Source: a virus
IMG/VR virus record: IMGVR_UViG_3300048591_000195
Span: 1 to 60,997 of that record
DNA: 60,997 bases
Strand: one strand, 5' to 3'
The notes beneath the pieces are model-generated. The model saw nothing but the letters and a program-made list of their open reading frames with translations, did no database searches and was not told the origin of the DNA. A program made the position numbers and the translations under genes. Shown here in pieces: positions 1 to 58,182 of this stretch. How positions within the stretch are numbered: the first letter of the stretch is position 1; every line of letters begins with the position of its first letter.

Positions 1-458
1 TCAATTACTACACGCTCACCCTTTTTGATCTTTATCTTTTTGCCGTCTTTGGTTACAATCTGAATATCCCTTACGGCTTCTGCGATAATATCGACCGTTC
101 CTTCCCATTCACTTACTGGCATTTTCTTTACCAGCTTATCCCCTACCGAAACAATCTTGAAGCCGATAAACATAGTGTCGCCCTCGGTAAAGAACCGCTT
201 GACGTACTTGGCATCGTTGTAAGCTTTTCGGTATGGCTCCATCATGTCCTTTCCTGATTTCATGTATTCAGGAACAGGAACCTTTCCTTCTTTAGGCAGG
301 GCACCTGTAAGGCAATACTCAAAGTACTGGCCTAACTTCATGGCCTTCGATGGATGGAGTAGTTTTCCATCAACCCAACAATGCCGAATAATGTTTCCGC
401 ACTTGTTTCCCTCAATGTATTCTTTAAAGGCTTTGTAAAATGATTGTGTGATTCTCAT
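1..458 (-). CDS. PD-(D/E)XK-type nuclease, N-terminal part (cut by window edge)
   Basis: The frame starts at ATG 458, whose first bases overlap the TGA of the upstream gene (ATGA), and is open to the window edge (152 codons plus two bases). Residues 36-50 (PSKAMKLGQYFEYCL) resemble the LGxxFE region of RecB/Cas4-like nucleases, and GTVDII at 120-125 matches the GxxD part of the catalytic core. The gene lies one small ORF downstream of the ERF annealing protein, the usual place for a partner exonuclease that resects double-stranded ends. The last two bases (GA) plus C at 60997 make a codon that continues in frame into the ORF at the right edge, so the two pieces are probably one gene of 266 aa. 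The family call comes from motif recognition only. Confidence 0.7.
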   Translation of the reverse strand, partial: MRITQSFYKAFKEYIEGNKCGNIIRHCWVDGKLLHPSKAMKLGQYFEYCLTGALPKEGKVPVPEYMKSGKDMMEPYRKAYNDAKYVKRFFTEGDTMFIGFKIVSVGDKLVKKMPVSEWEGTVDIIAEAVRDIQIVTKDGKKIKIKKGERVVI

Positions 459-640
459 ACAACATCCTTTAAAGCGTCCTTCAATATTTTCAGCTTCGAT
501 ACATCAGCCAATATGCCAACCTTTCGGCTTCCATCTGGAAGGTCAACGACAAAACTAAATTCAGGGCACGTTCCATGAGGGATAAATTCAATCTTCATCC
601 CCGGCTCCGATAACTGTATTGTGGTTCTTTTTCGTGTCAT
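455..640 (-). CDS. small hypothetical protein (61 aa)
   Basis: Short ORF between the ERF gene and the nuclease, with four-base ATGA overlaps on both sides, so it is translationally coupled to both. The sequence begins with basic residues (MTRKRTTIQL) and then reads like a small beta-rich domain (EFSFVVDLPDG, RKVGIL). No family recognised. Its position inside a recombination pair makes an accessory role in recombination possible, but that is context only. Confidence 0.7.
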   Translation of the reverse strand: MTRKRTTIQLSEPGMKIEFIPHGTCPEFSFVVDLPDGSRKVGILADVSKLKILKDALKDVV

Positions 641-1494
641 GGCTTCTTCTTTGATTGTTCGATTATTTCAAGTGCCTTCCTGCGTTCTTCTGACAAATCA
701 AAATGCTTTTCAATCTGTTCAATTGTCAACGGTTCTTTTTTCCCGTTATCAGGATTAACTCCTGATTGCATCCACTTCATACACTTCTTGAATTGTGAAT
801 CGCTCATGTCACGATCATTTACTGGCGGCTTCTTTCCTTCTTTTTCTTTTTTTCCACCATCATTGTCAGTATCAGCCGTAACCAATCCAAGCGCACCAAT
901 CAATGTATAACGCTCCAGGTAGGTAGTAGATGATCCGCGTGACTGAATCGCGTTCTTGAATCCCGAATAATCAACAGGCCCGGTCATTGTGGTTTCTTCT
1001 GAATGGCCTTGCTTATGTGTCAGGATGCACGTAACCTCAATATCTTTGTCGGTAATAATTTCACGTAAAACCTTTTCAAGCTGGCTCAACTTCTTTTTCT
1101 CGAAGTCATGCGCCTGTGCAACCGTGATAATCTGTTCAATTGTGTATGGGGTTTCTTTCTTTAAATCCCTGAATTTGTATTTGTAAGAAAAACCGCATTC
1201 ATACAAAGGTGCCTTAATCACCTCAACAATTTTATCCAGTTCGGCATAGGAGTATGTATTATCATACCCCTTTTTGTTTTTCTTAATCGCTGGAACAATT
1301 GATTGAAATTTGGATAGGGCTTCATCAAAAGCAGCCTTGGCCTGACGGGCCAGCCATTTCTCCTGCAAGGCCATTAGCTTTTCAAGTGTCTCAATACTTG
1401 CCCCTGATTCAATGGCCTTTGCCATCAATGTGTCGGGTGTTTGAATTACCAATGCGGCCTCTGATTGATCTGTTTTTTTAAGTGCTGTTTCCAT
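637..1494 (-). CDS. erf: ERF-family single-strand annealing protein
   Basis: 285 aa. Residues 50-110 contain the ERF-type segment with YSYAELDKIVEVI (81-93) and the P-L-x-x-x-GFSY turn. Residues 185-203 (SRGSSTTYLERYTLIGALG) followed by D-x-D-N-D-G at 208-213 match the characteristic C-terminal motif of the ERF core. ERF proteins bind single-stranded DNA and anneal complementary strands during phage recombination and genome circularisation. The C-terminal third (KKEKEGKKP and onward) is a charged linker plus a small tail domain. A PD-(D/E)XK nuclease sits just downstream, forming an annealase/exonuclease pair. The start is ATG 1494, nine bases downstream of the TCAACTAAC-type leader motif at 1504-1511. 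Confidence 0.9.
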   Translation of the reverse strand: METALKKTDQSEAALVIQTPDTLMAKAIESGASIETLEKLMALQEKWLARQAKAAFDEALSKFQSIVPAIKKNKKGYDNTYSYAELDKIVEVIKAPLYECGFSYKYKFRDLKKETPYTIEQIITVAQAHDFEKKKLSQLEKVLREIITDKDIEVTCILTHKQGHSEETTMTGPVDYSGFKNAIQSRGSSTTYLERYTLIGALGLVTADTDNDGGKKEKEGKKPPVNDRDMSDSQFKKCMKWMQSGVNPDNGKKEPLTIEQIEKHFDLSEERRKALEIIEQSKKKP

Positions 1495-1503
1495 GATTTA
1501 TTT

Positions 1504-1511
1504 GTTAGTTG
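1504..1511 (-). promoter_or_regulatory. leader motif CAACTAAC upstream of erf
   Basis: On the minus strand this reads CAACTAAC, followed by AAATAAATC and the erf ATG. It also supplies the TAA stop of the gene ending at 1505. It is one of at least nine exact minus-strand copies, eight of which sit 8-18 bases upstream of a start codon. Confidence 0.55.
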
Positions 1512-1771
1512 TTTGATTCCATAAATTCGGAATTTTTCCGGTCAAGTTCAAGGTTTTCGAGTAATTTATTCAGCGTGGTTATCTGACGGTTTACCCGCAC
1601 ATTTGTAAGCAGCATTTCAGATATACGCTTACCCGTTAGCCTTGCGTGTTTAGCTGCCCACCATTCAGGGCCAATCACAACCTGATTGTTTGAGAGCAGA
1701 ACCAGGTACTTTGTTTCCTTGCGCCTTAGTTTGCTTTTTAGAGGCTTGTTTGAGCAGGTTTGTATTTTCAT
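1505..1771 (-). CDS. hypothetical protein (88 aa)
   Basis: Small basic N-terminus (KSKLRRKETK) followed by a predicted alpha/beta stretch containing PEWWAAKHARLTGKRISEML and a C-terminal helix (NKLLENLELDR). Not recognised. It overlaps the downstream side of its upstream neighbour by four bases and ends inside the erf leader motif, so it is part of the same transcript as erf. Confidence 0.7.
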   Translation of the reverse strand: MKIQTCSNKPLKSKLRRKETKYLVLLSNNQVVIGPEWWAAKHARLTGKRISEMLLTNVRVNRQITTLNKLLENLELDRKNSEFMESNN

Positions 1772-1962
1772 AGTTCCAAAAGTTTTTTGATTTCAGGGTT
1801 AAAATTGATTGCCGCCAATGTGCTGCCAGCGTCATTTAGGGCTTTATCAATTTCCATCAAACGGGATAAATCAAAACCTGATTCACCGGTTAACGATACT
1901 TTATTAACAATATGCCGAACGTCTTGAATAGCAATGATCTGCTGCTGAATGGTGGTTTTCAT
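1768..1962 (-). CDS. hypothetical protein (64 aa)
   Basis: Short helical protein (QQIIAIQDVRHIVNKVSL; LMEIDKALNDAGSTLAAI). Four-base overlaps with both neighbours. No family recognised. Confidence 0.65.
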   Translation of the reverse strand: MKTTIQQQIIAIQDVRHIVNKVSLTGESGFDLSRLMEIDKALNDAGSTLAAINFNPEIKKLLEL

Positions 1963-2327
1963 TGCTGTAAAAGTTCAGGGTTCTCGTAGATGTTTCCGAT
2001 TACTTCAATGCCATCAGACTGGTTTTTTCGCCAAGCAAAATTCGTATTGTATTGAAAAGCAATAGTTATAATCTTTTCAACTGTATAACCAAAAGCGCCA
2101 TTACAAAACTCAACAACATGATTTGAAATATCAAAACACCTAACAATATCGCCTTCGTAAATGGGCACACCGTTCTTGTCGTGAAGACCGGTGAATTGCA
2201 ATAGTATCCCACACTCAGATATATTAGTAGGAACTCTATGTGCAAATTGATTTGCGGTAAAAGGCTGAGTCATTTTTTCACCCCATCCTTTCTTATACCA
2301 AATTTTGAATTTTATTTCCCTGCTCAT
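1959..2327 (-). CDS. YopX-family protein
   Basis: 122 aa, the usual length. It has the family's hallmark order: N-terminal REIKFKIWYKK, central LLQFTGLHDKNGVPIYEGDI (62-81 region) and C-terminal VIGNIYENPELL. YopX proteins are common in phages and prophages; their biochemical role is unknown. The gene is embedded in a run of small overlapping early genes (ATGA overlaps on both sides). Confidence 0.9.
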   Translation of the reverse strand: MSREIKFKIWYKKGWGEKMTQPFTANQFAHRVPTNISECGILLQFTGLHDKNGVPIYEGDIVRCFDISNHVVEFCNGAFGYTVEKIITIAFQYNTNFAWRKNQSDGIEVIGNIYENPELLQQ

Positions 2328-2509
2328 TTCGTTATTTCAATTTCAATTTTATCCTCCAATTCTTCCAAGTCTCTTATTACACTTTTGTAATCAAAGCCGG
2401 AGTACTTCTGTTGAATCTCCGCTATGTTTCGCGCGGAGGCTAAAAGCATTCTTAAATCCCGCAGACTTTCCTCGTCTCCGGTGATTTGTAGGTTTTCAAA
2501 GGTGGTCAT
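2324..2509 (-). CDS. hypothetical protein (61 aa)
   Basis: Acidic helical small protein (GDEESLRDLRMLLASARNIAE). ATGA overlap with both neighbours supports translation. Function unknown. Confidence 0.65.
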   Translation of the reverse strand: MTTFENLQITGDEESLRDLRMLLASARNIAEIQQKYSGFDYKSVIRDLEELEDKIEIEITK

Positions 2510-3021
2510 TTTAGTAGGGATAAAACAGAATCAGTTAAAAGCTCTCGACATATATTTGCCGTTTCAAGTTGGTTTTTAGTTCGAGCAGCAGCATAAGCAG
2601 CATAAGCAGCATCATCAGCAGCAGCATAAGCAGCATCAGCAGCAGCATAAGCAGCATAAGCAGCATCATCAGCAGCAGCATAAGCAGCATAAGCAGCAGC
2701 AGCATAAGCAGCATCAGCAGCAGCATAAGCAGCATCAGCAGCAGCATCCAGTTCATCGCGTGTGGCTAATCCGTCTGAAAACTTTAACGCTATCTCGCAA
2801 GCTTTTATGGAGCGTTCATCTTTCATTAAATGCCTAACGGTCAAGGCACACTTAGCTTTTGCTTTCGTTAGGATTTTAAAATCAACGTCCAAACGTTTGG
2901 CAAGCCAAAGCATCCAGTCACCGCGTGGACATTCATTCCATGCCTGTTCAAAAGATGAATATTTTGCCCGAAACTCTAAGGCATCACTGCATGGATCAAA
3001 TTTCTCTATTTCATATTTCAT
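2506..3021 (-). CDS. Ala/Tyr/Asp-repeat protein with WxxCPRGDWMLWLA N-terminal motif
   Basis: 171 aa. Residues 1-90 form a globular-looking part (SFEQAWNECPRGDWMLWLA at about 23-41). Residues about 92-146 are a low-complexity run of AAYAAADAAYAA-type units, then a normal C-terminal helix. The repeat units are multiples of three bases, so unit gain or loss changes the length of an Ala-rich helix without breaking the frame. I know phage and Bacteroidota proteins of this general type but no function. ATGA overlap with the downstream gene. Confidence 0.75.
   Translation of the reverse strand: MKYEIEKFDPCSDALEFRAKYSSFEQAWNECPRGDWMLWLAKRLDVDFKILTKAKAKCALTVRHLMKDERSIKACEIALKFSDGLATRDELDAAADAAYAAADAAYAAAAYAAYAAADDAAYAAYAAADAAYAAADDAAYAAYAAARTKNQLETANICRELLTDSVLSLLK
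2584..2749. repeat. trinucleotide-based tandem repeat inside a gene
   Basis: Runs of AGCAGCATAAGCAGCATC and close variants on the plus strand, encoding the Ala/Tyr/Asp repeat of the minus-strand gene. No stop codon appears in at least three of the reading frames across the tract, which explains long shadow ORFs rich in Leu/Met or Ser/Ile. Confidence 0.9.
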
Positions 3022-5423: not shown

Positions 5424-5544
5424 AATGATCGTTTTTAGTTCGGGGAATCGGCCCCGTCCGTTTGTTGTTGATGATTCAAAGTAAAGTATTTTTATTGACT
5501 TTTTAAAATATCCATAAAAATATTTTTCAACTTTTTTTCAGGAA

Positions 5545-5575
5545 TTTGGTTTTTAGGCTGTTTTCTGTACTTTTG
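5545..5575 (+). promoter_or_regulatory. Bacteroidota-type promoter (-33/-7) on the plus strand
   Basis: TTTG at 5545-5548, a 19-base spacer, then TACTTTTG at 5568-5575: an exact match to the TTTG / TAnnTTTG consensus. It points to the right, against all protein genes, and its expected start (about 5580) falls at the base of the first hairpin of the candidate RNA. Confidence 0.55.
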
Positions 5576-5579
5576 AAAC

Positions 5580-5682
5580 GATTGGGGCTGTCTGTATCTG
5601 TTATGGCATTGGCTAATACAGACACCCCAAAAGCATTAAGAGCCGATTTTTTGAGGATGCCACCGAAAAAAGTCGGCTTTTT
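5580..5682 (+). ncRNA. candidate small structured RNA, about 100 nt
   Basis: Starts just after the promoter at 5545-5575. Hairpin 1 pairs 5584-5597 (GGGGCTGTCTGTAT) with 5616-5628 (ATACAGACACCCC): 13 pairs with one bulged C. Hairpin 2 (5641-5678) is a terminator-like stem. A 28-codon ORF (ATG 5603 to TAA 5689) overlaps both hairpins but would end after the terminator, so a coding role is less likely. No known RNA family recognised; it is neither tmRNA, RNase P RNA nor 6S by inspection. Confidence 0.45.
5641..5682 (+). terminator. intrinsic terminator of the plus-strand small RNA
   Basis: AGCCGATTTTTT (5641-5652) pairs with AAAAAAGTCGGCT (5666-5678) with one bulge, followed by a run of five T at 5678-5682. 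The T-run is on the plus strand only. Confidence 0.55.
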
Positions 5683-6011
5683 GCTGTAATAAGTGGTTCG
5701 TTTACGGGAACGCTAAGCCTCGAACAGCAATAACAGGCAAAAAGCAAACCGGTTGAGATAAACTCAGCCATGAGCCCAGAGGACTCACGGCTGGTATAGG
5801 CAGGTGGATAAAATTCCGGGCAATGTACCAAAGGCGACAACCCGGCCGTAAAAAAATGACTCACCTCATTTCACCTGACCCCGGTACGGATTCCGGATGT
5901 TTATCGTCAGCCCGAACGATTTCGGATGCTAACAGGACAAAGATAATGCTTTTTATTCTTGTCTATCCCTAATCGTTAACCGTAACCTTTGTAATGAGGT
6001 TTTACGGATAG
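5681..6011. other. chain of hairpins, possible long structured RNA or origin
   Basis: Stems visible by eye: TTGCT/AGCAA plus GTTCG/CGAAC (5681-5730); CAGCC-TGAG/CTCA-GGCTG (5765-5793); a three-way junction with CAGGTG (5801) pairing CACCTG (5872) around CCGGG/CCCGG (5816/5841) and AAATGA/TCATTT (5854-5871); ATCGT/ACGAT (5903-5920); GACAAaGA/TCTTGTC (5936-5963); CTAT/ATAG around CCGTAA/TTACGG (5963-6011). The strand cannot be decided from pairing alone. Confidence 0.4.
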
Positions 6012-6061
6012 GCCTTAGTGTATCAAGTAACTAAGATAAAGAATCAAAAAAAGAAGTTCAG

Positions 6062-6100
6062 ATAATAAAAAAAAACCCCGGGACATCTCGTGAACCGGGG
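6062..6100 (-). terminator. terminator of the late (structural/lysis) module
   Basis: CCCCGG (6076-6081) pairs with CCGGGG (6095-6100). On the minus strand the stem is followed by a run of nine to ten T. It lies about 40 bases beyond the last late gene (6143). Confidence 0.8.
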
Positions 6101-6142
6101 CTAAACGCATGACAAAACAAAAAAGCTATCAGTACGACAAAC

Positions 6143-42309: not shown

Positions 42310-42376
42310 TTTGGGTTAATTATCGTCCTTTTGTTGATTTAGCTGTTTGTAATCGGAATAGTGGCATGTATTCAAT

Positions 42377-42539
42377 TGTTATAAACAAGCCGCCCCGCCA
42401 ATTGCGGCTCAAACCCCATCTGGAACCCACCCGCATGTTGGCCAGACGGTGGACTCACAAACCTCAATGTTTGTGCAAGCCAACGTTGCCACCGCACATG
42501 TTTGGCCGCGCCACGCTTCGGGTCGGCCAGTTTATAACA
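42377..42539. repeat. integron attC-like imperfect palindrome (163 bp)
   Basis: TGTTATAAAC (42377-42386) and GTTTATAACA (42530-42539) are exact inverse complements at the ends. Just inside, GCCGCCCC pairs with GGGTCGGC (7 of 8), after a short unpaired spacer. The centre holds CGGTGG/CCACCG and a CACAAAC/GTTTGTG hairpin. Two pairs of end boxes separated by a spacer plus a variable centre is the plan of an integron attC site. It is visibly richer in G+C than the phage sequence around it and lies directly after a small minus-strand gene, where a cassette's attC would be. Confidence 0.5.
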
Positions 42540-42581
42540 TGCAAGTTTATCCAATTAAAAAGCGTCATAGTGTGTGCGTAT

Positions 42582-42815
42582 CTATTTATCTACTGCTTCT
42601 TGACGGTAAATTGAAAATCCGTTTTCAGCAAAATTTATTCTGCCTTTGTTTATGCATTCCTGACAATAATGATGGTAAACGGTTTTGTGTGGCACCCACT
42701 TGGACACCGTAGTAAAATTTTGCTTTACTTCACCATCATAACTGACAACGTTCCCACATGAATCACAATCTATTTCTTCAATGGTTGGGAACTTCTTTTC
42801 AATTTCTCGTATCAT
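42582..42815 (-). CDS. zinc-ribbon protein, candidate gene-cassette cargo (77 aa)
   Basis: CDSCGNVVSYDGE (17-29) and YHHYCQECINKGR (48-60) give two C-x-x-C knuckles for zinc binding; start MIREIEKKFPTIEEI. It lies between the attC-like element (42377-42539) at its 3' side and a partial similar element (42852-42890) at its 5' side. The neighbouring broken gene (42923-43136) encodes a similar CDSCG knuckle. Function unknown. Confidence 0.65.
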   Translation of the reverse strand: MIREIEKKFPTIEEIDCDSCGNVVSYDGEVKQNFTTVSKWVPHKTVYHHYCQECINKGRINFAENGFSIYRQEAVDK

Positions 42816-42851
42816 AATCTTTACTTATTTAGTTTGTGTTCGCTTTTTAAC

Positions 42852-42890
42852 TGTATAAACTTGCCGCTACATTAGCGGTAATGCCAGTGA
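42852..42890. repeat. partial attC-like end
   Basis: TGTATAAACTTGCCGCTACA (42852-42871) then TTAGCGGTAATGCC resembles the left end of the 42377 element (TATAAAC, two bases, GCCGC...GCGG). No matching right end is visible, so it may be a remnant. Confidence 0.35.
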
Positions 42891-42922: not shown

Positions 42923-43136
42923 TCAAATCAAATCAAAAAGACCACCGTTATTTAATGCATCTTTAACGTCTTTGTCAAGGTCTTTCATTTTAGCCAAATC
43001 CACGCTCATGGTTTTGTCCACCGCGCCACTGGCACGCGCAACTAACCTTCCACAACTATCACATATTTGATTTTCAAAATCTGCTGTTACTTCTCCATTT
43101 CGGTTTCATACCATTGTTTTCTTTTTCGTTTGTCAT
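42923..43136 (-). pseudogene. frameshifted small zinc-ribbon gene
   Basis: ATG 43136 reads MTNEKENNGMKPKWRSNSRF and stops. In the next frame the stretch NGEVTADFENQICDSCGRLV, then MSVDLAKMKDLDKDVKDALN, GGLFDLI is a convincing protein end with a CDSCG knuckle, but it lacks its own start codon. A one-base change around 43090-43105 would join the two. Either a pseudogene or a sequencing error. Confidence 0.45.
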
Positions 43137-55376: not shown

Positions 55377-57503
55377 TTAAAATGGTGGGTCTTCCGGTAA
55401 CGGTGCGTTCATGTTTGGCTTTGCCTGTTTCATCTTTGCGTAATGGTTCTCGTACTTCATTTCAGATTGATGCCCCTTCAATAATGAGCCGTCAATCGGA
55501 CAAACACCATTAAAAAAAAACCTGTTTGTTAATTCATCAAAATGAATCTGATCGAAGTATCCTAACTTTGTCGTTAATTCCTGACTGCGTTGCTTCAATG
55601 TGTAAAAACTGCCTTTCGGGCTATTTGGGTTTATATGCTTCTCATGCCTGTGGTACGAAAATATTCCATCCATTGAATTATCCCAAGCAGAGCCACCCAA
55701 CAAATCATGCTGTGTTACTACCTTATATTCTCCATTAAGTTTTCCGTTCTTTCTCATTCGCCTTTCGTCCATGCTTTTCGGGTGAGCAATTAAGTTTCCG
55801 ACCATATCCGTATCAAGAACCAAATCCTCAAATTCACCAAACACCCTTTCAAGAACCACGTCCTTTGTTGTCTTTCCTTCATCTATCGTTAAGTTCTTCC
55901 ACGGGTCAAGTAAGAATCCATCCGTTCCAAAAGTTTCATATAGGTTTTTAAATCCTTCAATTACTGTTTTTGGTGCCCGGTCTTTGTGAGTATCCAATAC
56001 AAAAAAATGCTGCTCTATCCATAACATCGCAGCCTGATATTCTGCCAAAGTCATTTGATTGCCTTTGTGTTTGTATGGGTTCTTTCCCGTGTACGCATGA
56101 ATCAGAATATTATAAATCTTGTGCGCTGATCTTACCATTCTGCCGTCCGAATTTTTTACCGAATCAATCATTTCAGGACTCCATATCGCCCACTTCCAAT
56201 CGTCAATAACAGACTTCACCAACATCAAGAAAAGCACGAGGCCAGTATTATGTGTTGGAACAAACGATCGGCCTGATAGATACAGATGACTTGGGGAATC
56301 AACCTGAATACATTTTACAGGAACACTATTTATAGGATCACATGAAACAATACTTCTGTACCGACAATTCAATCTTATTTCTTTTGAAAGTCTTTTTTTC
56401 TTTCTTGGTAAAGAGAAAACATCTTTGTTAGTTTTAAAAGTTATTCTATATCGATCCGATGTTTTTCTGCCATATAATTTAGCATCATATTTTTTAGAAT
56501 AACATTTGATGCCTAATGAATTTATCAGTGTATAAACATGGTTAGATAAATTAAAATTTGTACTGGTAAACTCCATATTTCCTGTTTTTGAAGCTGTGCC
56601 GTCAGAATCCATTAACCCCCTTAATAACTCCATTCTATCACTTTCATCACTAAATAAATAAATATCTGGAATATGTTTATTGTGCAGTAATTTCAATTCA
56701 ACCATTTGTTTTCTTACTCCATGAATCGTGAATTCTCCACAGTTTCTATTCCTCTTATCTGGCCTAAAAGTACCAACCTCATAACCTAATGATGTTAATT
56801 TTTGTAAATAAAAATTGTAATCATCAAAAGAGCTTGTTATTGAATTTGTTCTTGAATTTCCATCACCAAGCCATAAACCAATTATATAAGGATGAACAGG
56901 TAAATTATTTTTACTACATTTTATTGGTTTCGCAACAGGAACATAATGTTTATATCTTTTATTACCATTAACATCAATTCTATCGATCAATGTTCGACTA
57001 ATTTCATAAGTAGTGACAATTGATGGTTGTACCATCTTATATGATTGATCGGTTCCTCTTAATTTAAGAGGCCCTCTCCTTTCGTTTCTATATAGGCTAT
57101 TAACAGCATGAGAACTATATGTTTTCCATAAATGATCCTCACAACAAATTTCCTCAGTTCCATCACTAAATGTAATTTTATAGCATCTTTTATTAAACTG
57201 AACTTCGGTTACGAACGTAACATTACATTGATTACCATTTTCATCAAAGACGATATCACCTGCTTTTAAATCCAACATCTTTTTAAACCCGTTTGGAGTT
57301 GGTATTTCTGTATGTATCCACTGAGCTTTCCCGAAACCCGCAAATCCAGTAAACGCATTTAAAAAACCACGCATCCAACTGAATATATTTTCCAAGTCAG
57401 AAATACGGCACTTATCCGCAATCTTTCCTCCCTCCTTAAAATCAACTATTAATCGTGATATGTTTGGAGGTAAGTACCCGCCTATGTTTCCGTTATCTGA
57501 CAT
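55377..57503 (-). CDS. dnaB: DnaB-type replicative helicase, ATPase domain, with intein
   Basis: 708 aa precursor; about 348 aa after splicing. The P-loop GFAGFGK (53-59) is cut by the intein (60-419) exactly before its Thr (420). The ATPase continues with LVLFLMLVKSVIDDWKWAIW, a Walker-B-like DGFLLDPW and SYHRHEKHINPN, as in DnaB-like RecA folds. The N-terminal domain is in a separate gene upstream (57493-58182), overlapping by 11 bases in another frame. The helicase unwinds DNA at the phage fork; it works only after the intein is removed, as the P-loop is otherwise broken. Confidence 0.85.
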   Translation of the reverse strand: MSDNGNIGGYLPPNISRLIVDFKEGGKIADKCRISDLENIFSWMRGFLNAFTGFAGFGKAQWIHTEIPTPNGFKKMLDLKAGDIVFDENGNQCNVTFVTEVQFNKRCYKITFSDGTEEICCEDHLWKTYSSHAVNSLYRNERRGPLKLRGTDQSYKMVQPSIVTTYEISRTLIDRIDVNGNKRYKHYVPVAKPIKCSKNNLPVHPYIIGLWLGDGNSRTNSITSSFDDYNFYLQKLTSLGYEVGTFRPDKRNRNCGEFTIHGVRKQMVELKLLHNKHIPDIYLFSDESDRMELLRGLMDSDGTASKTGNMEFTSTNFNLSNHVYTLINSLGIKCYSKKYDAKLYGRKTSDRYRITFKTNKDVFSLPRKKKRLSKEIRLNCRYRSIVSCDPINSVPVKCIQVDSPSHLYLSGRSFVPTHNTGLVLFLMLVKSVIDDWKWAIWSPEMIDSVKNSDGRMVRSAHKIYNILIHAYTGKNPYKHKGNQMTLAEYQAAMLWIEQHFFVLDTHKDRAPKTVIEGFKNLYETFGTDGFLLDPWKNLTIDEGKTTKDVVLERVFGEFEDLVLDTDMVGNLIAHPKSMDERRMRKNGKLNGEYKVVTQHDLLGGSAWDNSMDGIFSYHRHEKHINPNSPKGSFYTLKQRSQELTTKLGYFDQIHFDELTNRFFFNGVCPIDGSLLKGHQSEMKYENHYAKMKQAKPNMNAPLPEDPPF
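56247..57326 (-). mobile_element. class 3 intein with LAGLIDADG endonuclease (360 aa)
   Basis: Starts with Ala60 (KAQWIHTEIPTPNGFKK), not Cys or Ser, and ends THN before Thr420. The three marks of class 3 inteins are present: Trp126 in EDHLWKT (block B), Cys398 in VKCIQVDSPSHLYLSG (block F) and Thr420 at the +1 place. A homing endonuclease domain with two LAGLIDADG motifs lies inside: PYIIGLWLGDG (205-215) and ELLRGLMDSDG (292-302). It sits in the helicase P-loop, a known favoured place for inteins. Confidence 0.9.
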
Positions 57504-58182
57504 TCAATTCCTCTATTTCTTTTAGTTCCTTTTTGCATTTATCCAGTTGAACAAATACGTCCACAGTATCGTCATAGCAATCCTGATGTATCTTGCTACC
57601 GTATTCAATCAGTTTTCTTTTGATAGCCATTTCAATAACACAACGCGCATGGTATTCTAAGTTTGCAGCACTCGATACCTTTGAGGTTAATTCAGCGATG
57701 TAATGCGCTCCGCCAATCATTTCCAGTTTACCCGACTTTCTTAAGGCCATTACCACAGTACGCATATCAATTGCCATGTTTTCAGCCTTCATTTTTTGTA
57801 GGGTTGAAAATATCTCCTGATGGGCCGGATTGTAAAAGCTATCAGGATTCATAATTAAAAGCACCTTTTCGGTTTGGTCGTTGTTCTCCAACATCAATGC
57901 CCCAAGTATTGCCTCCTCCAAGTCAATCGCCTGCGGGGGTATCTTTCCTAAATCATCACGCTTTTTTATTTCATCTTCATAGGCTCGGAGTAGCTTTTCA
58001 ACTACGTTAATGAATAGGTTATTTTCCTGGATTTTGATTTTAATCTTTTGCGATGGTTCCTTGTATCGTTCCAGTAATTCAACGGAGTTCTTGAATTTCT
58101 TTAAATAGAAACTAACTTCGTCCTTTAAGTCTTGCAGGCGAGGCTTTTGCTTGTACGTTGATGTTTTGTTAGTTGATTGCAT
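57493..58182 (-). CDS. DnaB N-terminal domain as a separate protein
   Basis: 229 aa. Residues 1-75 are a helical extension (RLQDLKDEVSFYLKKFKNSV). About 82-190 form the DnaB N-terminal helical domain: PPQAIDLEEAILGALMLENN; NPAHQEIFSTLQKMKAENM; MIGGAHYIAELTSKVSSAAN; EYHARCVIEMAIKRKLIEYG. In bacteria this domain is fused to the ATPase and shapes the hexamer. Here it ends at LNVR, with the ATPase ORF starting inside its last codons. The leader-motif sequence occupies codons 2-5. Confidence 0.82.
   Translation of the reverse strand: MQSTNKTSTYKQKPRLQDLKDEVSFYLKKFKNSVELLERYKEPSQKIKIKIQENNLFINVVEKLLRAYEDEIKKRDDLGKIPPQAIDLEEAILGALMLENNDQTEKVLLIMNPDSFYNPAHQEIFSTLQKMKAENMAIDMRTVVMALRKSGKLEMIGGAHYIAELTSKVSSAANLEYHARCVIEMAIKRKLIEYGSKIHQDCYDDTVDVFVQLDKCKKELKEIEELNVR
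58168..58175 (-). promoter_or_regulatory. CAACTAAC inside the first codons of gene 57493-58182
   Basis: Here the motif follows the ATG (ATGCAATCAACTAACAAAAC). Either the motif works within the coding start, or the copy is by chance. Confidence 0.3.

Follow-up and report, generated by a model that had tools for sequence, protein, structure and literature searches.

The window analyzed here is the whole of virus record IMGVR_UViG_3300048591_000195 (60,997 bases), which carries a tailed-phage gene set comprising terminase, portal, major head protein, tape measure, Erf, and a DnaB-like helicase. The terminase was closest to those of Bacteroides and Parabacteroides phages, at ~33% identity, and because these are its nearest counterparts the phage probably infects a member of the Bacteroidota. 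The locus of concern lies near 42 kb, where a 163-nt GC-rich palindrome, hereafter element A (42377-42539), occupies an intergenic gap upstream of a co-oriented glycosyltransferase gene (42309-41050). As an earlier note on this DNA had stated, the element is located directly 3′ of a small minus-strand gene, an ORF of 77 aa (42582-42815) that contains two CxxC motifs and is zinc-ribbon-like. Protein searches returned no homologues of this ORF at useful scores, the best match being phrog_17187 (E 0.0065), a family of unknown function. The next gene is broken: a remaining frame (...CDSCGRLV...) is present at 42923-43105 on the minus strand, and the frame neighbouring it is full of stops. The same note had described its product as a CDSCG protein similar to that of the small ORF; the gene is indeed broken, but the likeness extends over only nine residues. 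A replication origin at this locus was considered and not favoured, as the skew is unchanged at 42 kb.

The end boxes of element A are exact inverse complements over 10 nt, with TGTTATAAAC on the plus strand at 42377-42386 and again on the minus strand at 42530-42539, where the plus strand reads GTTTATAACA. Interior to these, and preceded by a 2-nt spacer (AA), the inner box GCCGCCCCG (42389-42397, plus strand) pairs at eight of nine positions with CGGGTCGGC (42519-42527, plus strand), which is followed by a 2-nt spacer of its own (CA). Folding further exposed a second stem tier, in which GCGGCTCAAAC (42404-42414, plus strand) is joined to GTTTGGCCGC (42500-42509), and a central hairpin with seven perfect base pairs, CACAAAC-CTCAAT-GTTTGTG (42456-42475, plus strand), the centre as a whole being branched. 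Sequence and folding together thus confirm the palindrome as first described, with its exact inverse ends, spacers, inner box pair, and structured centre. The hexamer TTATAA is present on both sides of the element, at 42379-42384 and 42532-42537. GC content is 56% in the hairpin, 36% in the small gene, and 40% in the phage.

The boxes recur around the small gene. Exactly three copies of TATAAACNNGCCG are present in the window, all within 42380-42866 (<490 bp), with no one-mismatch copy elsewhere in it, and TATAAACNNGCCGC was absent from all other loci fetched for comparison. Further box copies are found at 42550 and 42854. The latter, TATAAACTTGCCGC (42854-42867, plus strand), lies 5′ of the small gene, adjoins a small hairpin (CCGCTA-CAT-TAGCGG, 42864-42878), and repeats TATAAACAAGCCGC at 42380-42393, so that the partial second end proposed for this side of the gene is real. 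The half-site GCGGCNNGTTTATA occurs twice in one polarity with respect to the gene, once on its 5′ side and once at the hairpin's 3′ end. Read along the minus strand, the locus comprises in turn GCGGC-AA-GTTTATA, the ORF, a box GGATAAAC, and the hairpin, which ends in GCGGC-TT-GTTTATA; the R''-like box beside the hairpin is doubled. Overlooked at first reading was a 24-nt inverted repeat that encloses the 77-aa ORF, its left arm being GCAAGTTTATCCAATTAAAAAGCG (42541-42564) and its right arm CGCTTTTTAACTGTATAAACTTGC (42841-42864). The arms match at 22 of 24 positions, while the best of eight shuffles reached no more than 19.

Folding of the single strand, suggested previously as a check, paired the outer and inner boxes on both strands. 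As ssDNA, the minus strand folded at -42.2 kcal/mol (z -4.15) and the plus strand at -36.4 kcal/mol (z -3.4), with the end boxes closed in each. Element A ranked first among 1353 windows of the record, at 4.9 SD below GC expectation, and was also the best site of its plan in ~0.95 Mb of viral DNA, from loci that had been pre-picked for GTTATAAAC boxes. By itself, the match between the arms (18/21 in 200 nt) was reached in six of 20 shuffled windows as well; since shuffles attain it this often, the significance of the locus rests on the whole fold together with the repeated boxes.

Element A had been proposed to be an integron attC site. Such sites, with CALIN cassettes, have been published from the virulent phages Polaribacter P12002L, Pseudoalteromonas PH101, and Tetrasphaera TJE1 (Qi et al. 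2023, PMC9892861), and working cassette sites in virulent phages have been reported (PMC9892861). The attC R-R' box conforms to G|TTRRRY (PMC9892861), and imperfections of the palindrome, namely an unpaired central spacer and extrahelical bases, set strand choice (PMC8946536). The earlier statement that the window lacks an integrase held within the reach of our searches: neither integrase nor transposase was detected among the ~35 record ORFs scanned with Pfam and/or PHROGs (small ORFs being partly covered), and a six-frame search of the record revealed no integron integrase.

For comparison, 84,980 genomes were scanned for box pairs of element A's plan, which yielded four loci. Among these was a 3-kb contig named Bacteroidetes bacterium (L106), with two copies of the plan, which we read as a cassette array, the contig having no integrase. 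Across positions 1-3010 of this MAG contig, attC-like hairpins are located at ~90-211, 1395-1524, 1669-1789, and 1953-2085, and the bodies between them have complementary ends; in two short homologous bodies (1522-1671 and 1786-1955), a tiny ORF reads through the end box (..RLFITS). In the phylum of the genome to which L106 belongs (G005), a TIGR02249 integrase scored above cut-off in 105 of 395 sampled genomes. We took attC-like sites from 40 integrase loci (L154-L193) using a purpose-made box-and-stem finder with thresholds of our own choosing, and built a covariance model, R1, from 37 aligned attC-like sites adjoining integron integrases. Only sites with TAAC/GTTA boxes were kept for training, a bias that we declare, and the E-values are rough, the calibration having been short.

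R1 recovered 26 sites in integrase loci outside its training set, down to E 9e-26. Five more hits fell in PH101 (Pseudoalteromonas phage H101; four sites) and TJE1 (one site), their coordinates not being matched to those of the paper. It found one of the four attC-like sites in L106, and no site in P12002L, although attC2 of that phage is reported to be active (PMC9892861). When R1 was run on the window with filters on, nothing was returned at E 10, and with filters off, over 2.5 kb, there was no match over element A.

The architecture of the element also departed from that of sites beside integrases. Its spacers are 2/2 in either polarity and on both strands, as opposed to 1-2/4-6, and its boxes are AAAC/GTTT, as opposed to TAAC/GTTA. 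When the box filter was lifted, GTTA was still present in 34 of the 36 hairpins that lie near confirmed sites and have 1-2/4-6 spacers, and 2/2 spacing was nearly absent there, while hairpins elsewhere had no such preference; because GTTA-based tools were also what located the confirmed sites, the contrast lends support without being independent. In cassette polarity the R' box of element A is GTTTATA, which does not conform to G|TTRRRY. Read in the opposite polarity, the box is GTTATAA, which likewise does not fit RRRY, and no attC then follows on either side, for which reason we set aside the palindrome as a cassette body with an outer attC, as in L106. Of the attC features tested, four failed, including unequal spacers and a cluster of at least two sites or a nearby integrase (the locus has one hairpin and one half-site, with no integrase found), and one was present, an ssDNA hairpin in which the outer (R) and the inner (L) boxes pair. 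Element A is not a canonical attC, and its identification as an attC is not supported. A covariance search of the kind proposed in the earlier note, run here with R1, was silent although its positive controls worked, and the outcome that the note had named as counting against its attC plan, a fold without the attC hairpin and its extrahelical-base asymmetry, is largely what the symmetric spacers represent. Its comparison to a captured gene cassette fared better in part, in that the layout (tiny ORF, 3′ hairpin, 5′ half-site, and polarity) was retained and the attC identity was lost.

We also pursued relatives of the locus. There was no second copy of element A in the window, blastn of the element and its surroundings returned no match in phages and plasmids, and two further scans, one with the 24-nt arm and one with the core of the hairpin, likewise gave no match. 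In 395 genomes of one phylum, blastn identified no second copy; two short matches were located in a single genome, and the one viewed looks coding. Scans of viral contigs for the boxes recovered only chance or unrelated palindromes. Overall, no relative of the hairpin, the gene, or the repeat was found, which is weak evidence because the record's near relatives are left out of these collections. As a result no empty site was compared, the terminase relatives, considered for this purpose, being too distant at ~33% identity. Palindromes of other kinds were seen during this work. An AT-rich palindrome of 192 nt with GTTATAAAC/GTTTATAAC ends is conserved in four viral contigs (L017 2744-2935, L031 317-508, L067 3192-3383, and L088 1125-1316), where it is intergenic, with genes for an HNH protein and a helicase-like protein nearby. 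Clustered GTTATAAAC-box palindromic repeats, probably of REP type, were present in a Dehalococcoidia MAG and Kordia jejudonensis (L108 6848-7170 and L105 4446-4760, respectively).

The best explanation of the locus, to which we assign a probability of roughly 30%, is a small, probably acquired gene unit that arrived as a cassette-like insertion and is possibly now a relic. The putative unit is the zinc-ribbon-like ORF, bounded 5′ by one TATAAACNNGCCGC box and 3′ by the long hairpin with the same box at both ends, and this succession of half-site, gene, and a single-strand-folding site is the layout of a gene cassette. The boxes, inverted repeats, fold, GC contrast, and orientation are observed; the unit may have moved as a whole, with the folded strand as the substrate. 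Insertion would most likely have occurred by recombination at folded box pairs, using an enzyme from outside the phage, and the unit would since have decayed and now be inactive; decay is suggested by the lack of a second complete site, the doubling of the R''-like box, and the broken CDSCG neighbour. In favour of this history are the three clustered TATAAACNNGCCG copies, the half-sites of like polarity, the strength of the fold, and the working cassette sites published from virulent phages. The complementary ends of the gene unit recall the cassette-body ends in L106, and the composition of gene, hairpin, and phage fits acquired DNA. Against a cassette, the complementarity between start and end (22/24) exceeds that in 30 measured cassettes, which are paired mainly over ~9 nt, and the upstream half has no complete site. 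The doubled R''-like box, the silence of R1, the 2/2 spacers and GTTT boxes, and the failure to find an integrase or any relative also count against it.

Known cassette systems provide partial parallels. The attC/CALIN cassettes of phages (PMC9892861) are alike in that small genes are accompanied by recombination sites that fold, the phage itself having no integrase. They differ in having G|TTRRRY boxes and clusters of at least two sites, and the PH101 and TJE1 sites score with R1 whereas element A does not. Cassettes beside the TIGR02249 integrases, and those of L106, share with our locus the paired outer and inner boxes, the complementary cassette start and end, and a GC-rich site by a small gene, but their spacers are 1-2/4-6 and their boxes GTTA, in contrast to 2/2 and GTTT in element A. 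That the locus exemplifies a cassette system distinct from integrons, with tiny genes bounded by TATAAACNNGCCG boxes and symmetric long hairpins and transferred between Bacteroidota phages by a recombinase other than IntI, seems to us very unlikely.

Level with the cassette-like insertion, and thus equally tentative, we place a structured element native to the phage, acting either at the RNA level or as a DNA cruciform. Pairing of the 24-nt arms, one in each untranslated region (5′ and 3′), would close the transcript of the small gene, and the large branched hairpin would set that transcript apart from the glycosyltransferase gene, for example by stabilising or processing mRNA. This is consistent with the intergenic position, ahead of a gene read in the same direction, and with the minus-strand RNA of 42370-42880, which folds at z -5.2, the ORF lying inside the arms and the hairpin making up a domain of its own; in a different phage group, four contigs share a distinct long GTTATAAAC...GTTTATAAC palindrome at the same intergenic position. 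On the other hand, on the minus strand the hairpin stands out more when folded as DNA (z -4.15) than when folded as RNA (z -2.7), no Rfam family matches at element A, no intrinsic terminator is listed there and a T-tract is absent, and the GC contrast suggests foreign DNA. Near these two, though somewhat less probable, stands a non-autonomous mobile palindrome or host repeat of the MITE/REP type, acquired by the phage, with terminal inverted repeats ACNNGCCGNCCCG and TTATAA as the duplicated target. Element A is like such palindromes in being long and imperfect, its imperfect terminal inverted repeats are flanked by a direct repeat of TTATAA, it is GC-rich relative to the phage, and GTTATAAAC-box palindromes are clustered repeats in other bacteria (L105 and L108). 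Unlike them it is single copy, with neither a transposase nor a second copy found in the window, phages, plasmids, viral contigs, or the 395 genomes of one phylum. Target duplication also leaves the box copies at 42550 and 42854 unexplained, and as TTATAA is inside the palindrome and self-complementary, a duplicated target here is indistinguishable from an inverted box.

Two further explanations were judged less favourably. That the locus is a true integron attC and cassette, decayed or unusual and so beyond the reach of R1, is unlikely: the layout is cassette-like, R1 was trained on TAAC/GTTA boxes, and it misses both P12002L and three of the four attC-like sites in L106, but the spacers are symmetric, the boxes are GTTT, a second site is absent, and the model gave no match even with filters off. 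Improbable to a greater degree is an invertible, shufflon-like segment in which four ATAAACNNGC boxes serve as crossover sites for flipping the hairpin or the gene. The order and orientation of these boxes (+ - - +) and the 24-nt inverted repeat around the gene are as such a segment would have them, yet the central dinucleotides differ among the boxes (AA, TG, TT, and TT) and no site-specific recombinase was found in the window.

If the unit did move as a cassette, phages would carry hairpin-bounded genes that are missed by standard attC searches. Because virulent phages with attC and CALIN cassettes are already on record (PMC9892861), such an outcome would extend a known kind; only the demonstration of another recombinase would make it a new one. 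If the unit did not move in this way, then a perfect-looking R/L box palindrome by a small gene is insufficient to call an attC, and it is spacer asymmetry and a control-checked covariance model that tell attC from look-alikes.

Finally, we noted other features in the window. The region 5430-6140 comprises ~700 bp without a convincing gene and has the second-strongest folds of the window, with a terminator-like hairpin at its right end; Rfam searches of this region returned nothing above chance. A dense AGCAGCAT-type repeat is present at 2563-2781, within the ORF at 2506-3021. At 55377-58182, an ORF with a DnaB N-terminal domain has as its neighbour an ORF of 708 aa that contains a LAGLIDADG homing-endonuclease domain, which suggests an intein or insertion in the replicative helicase.
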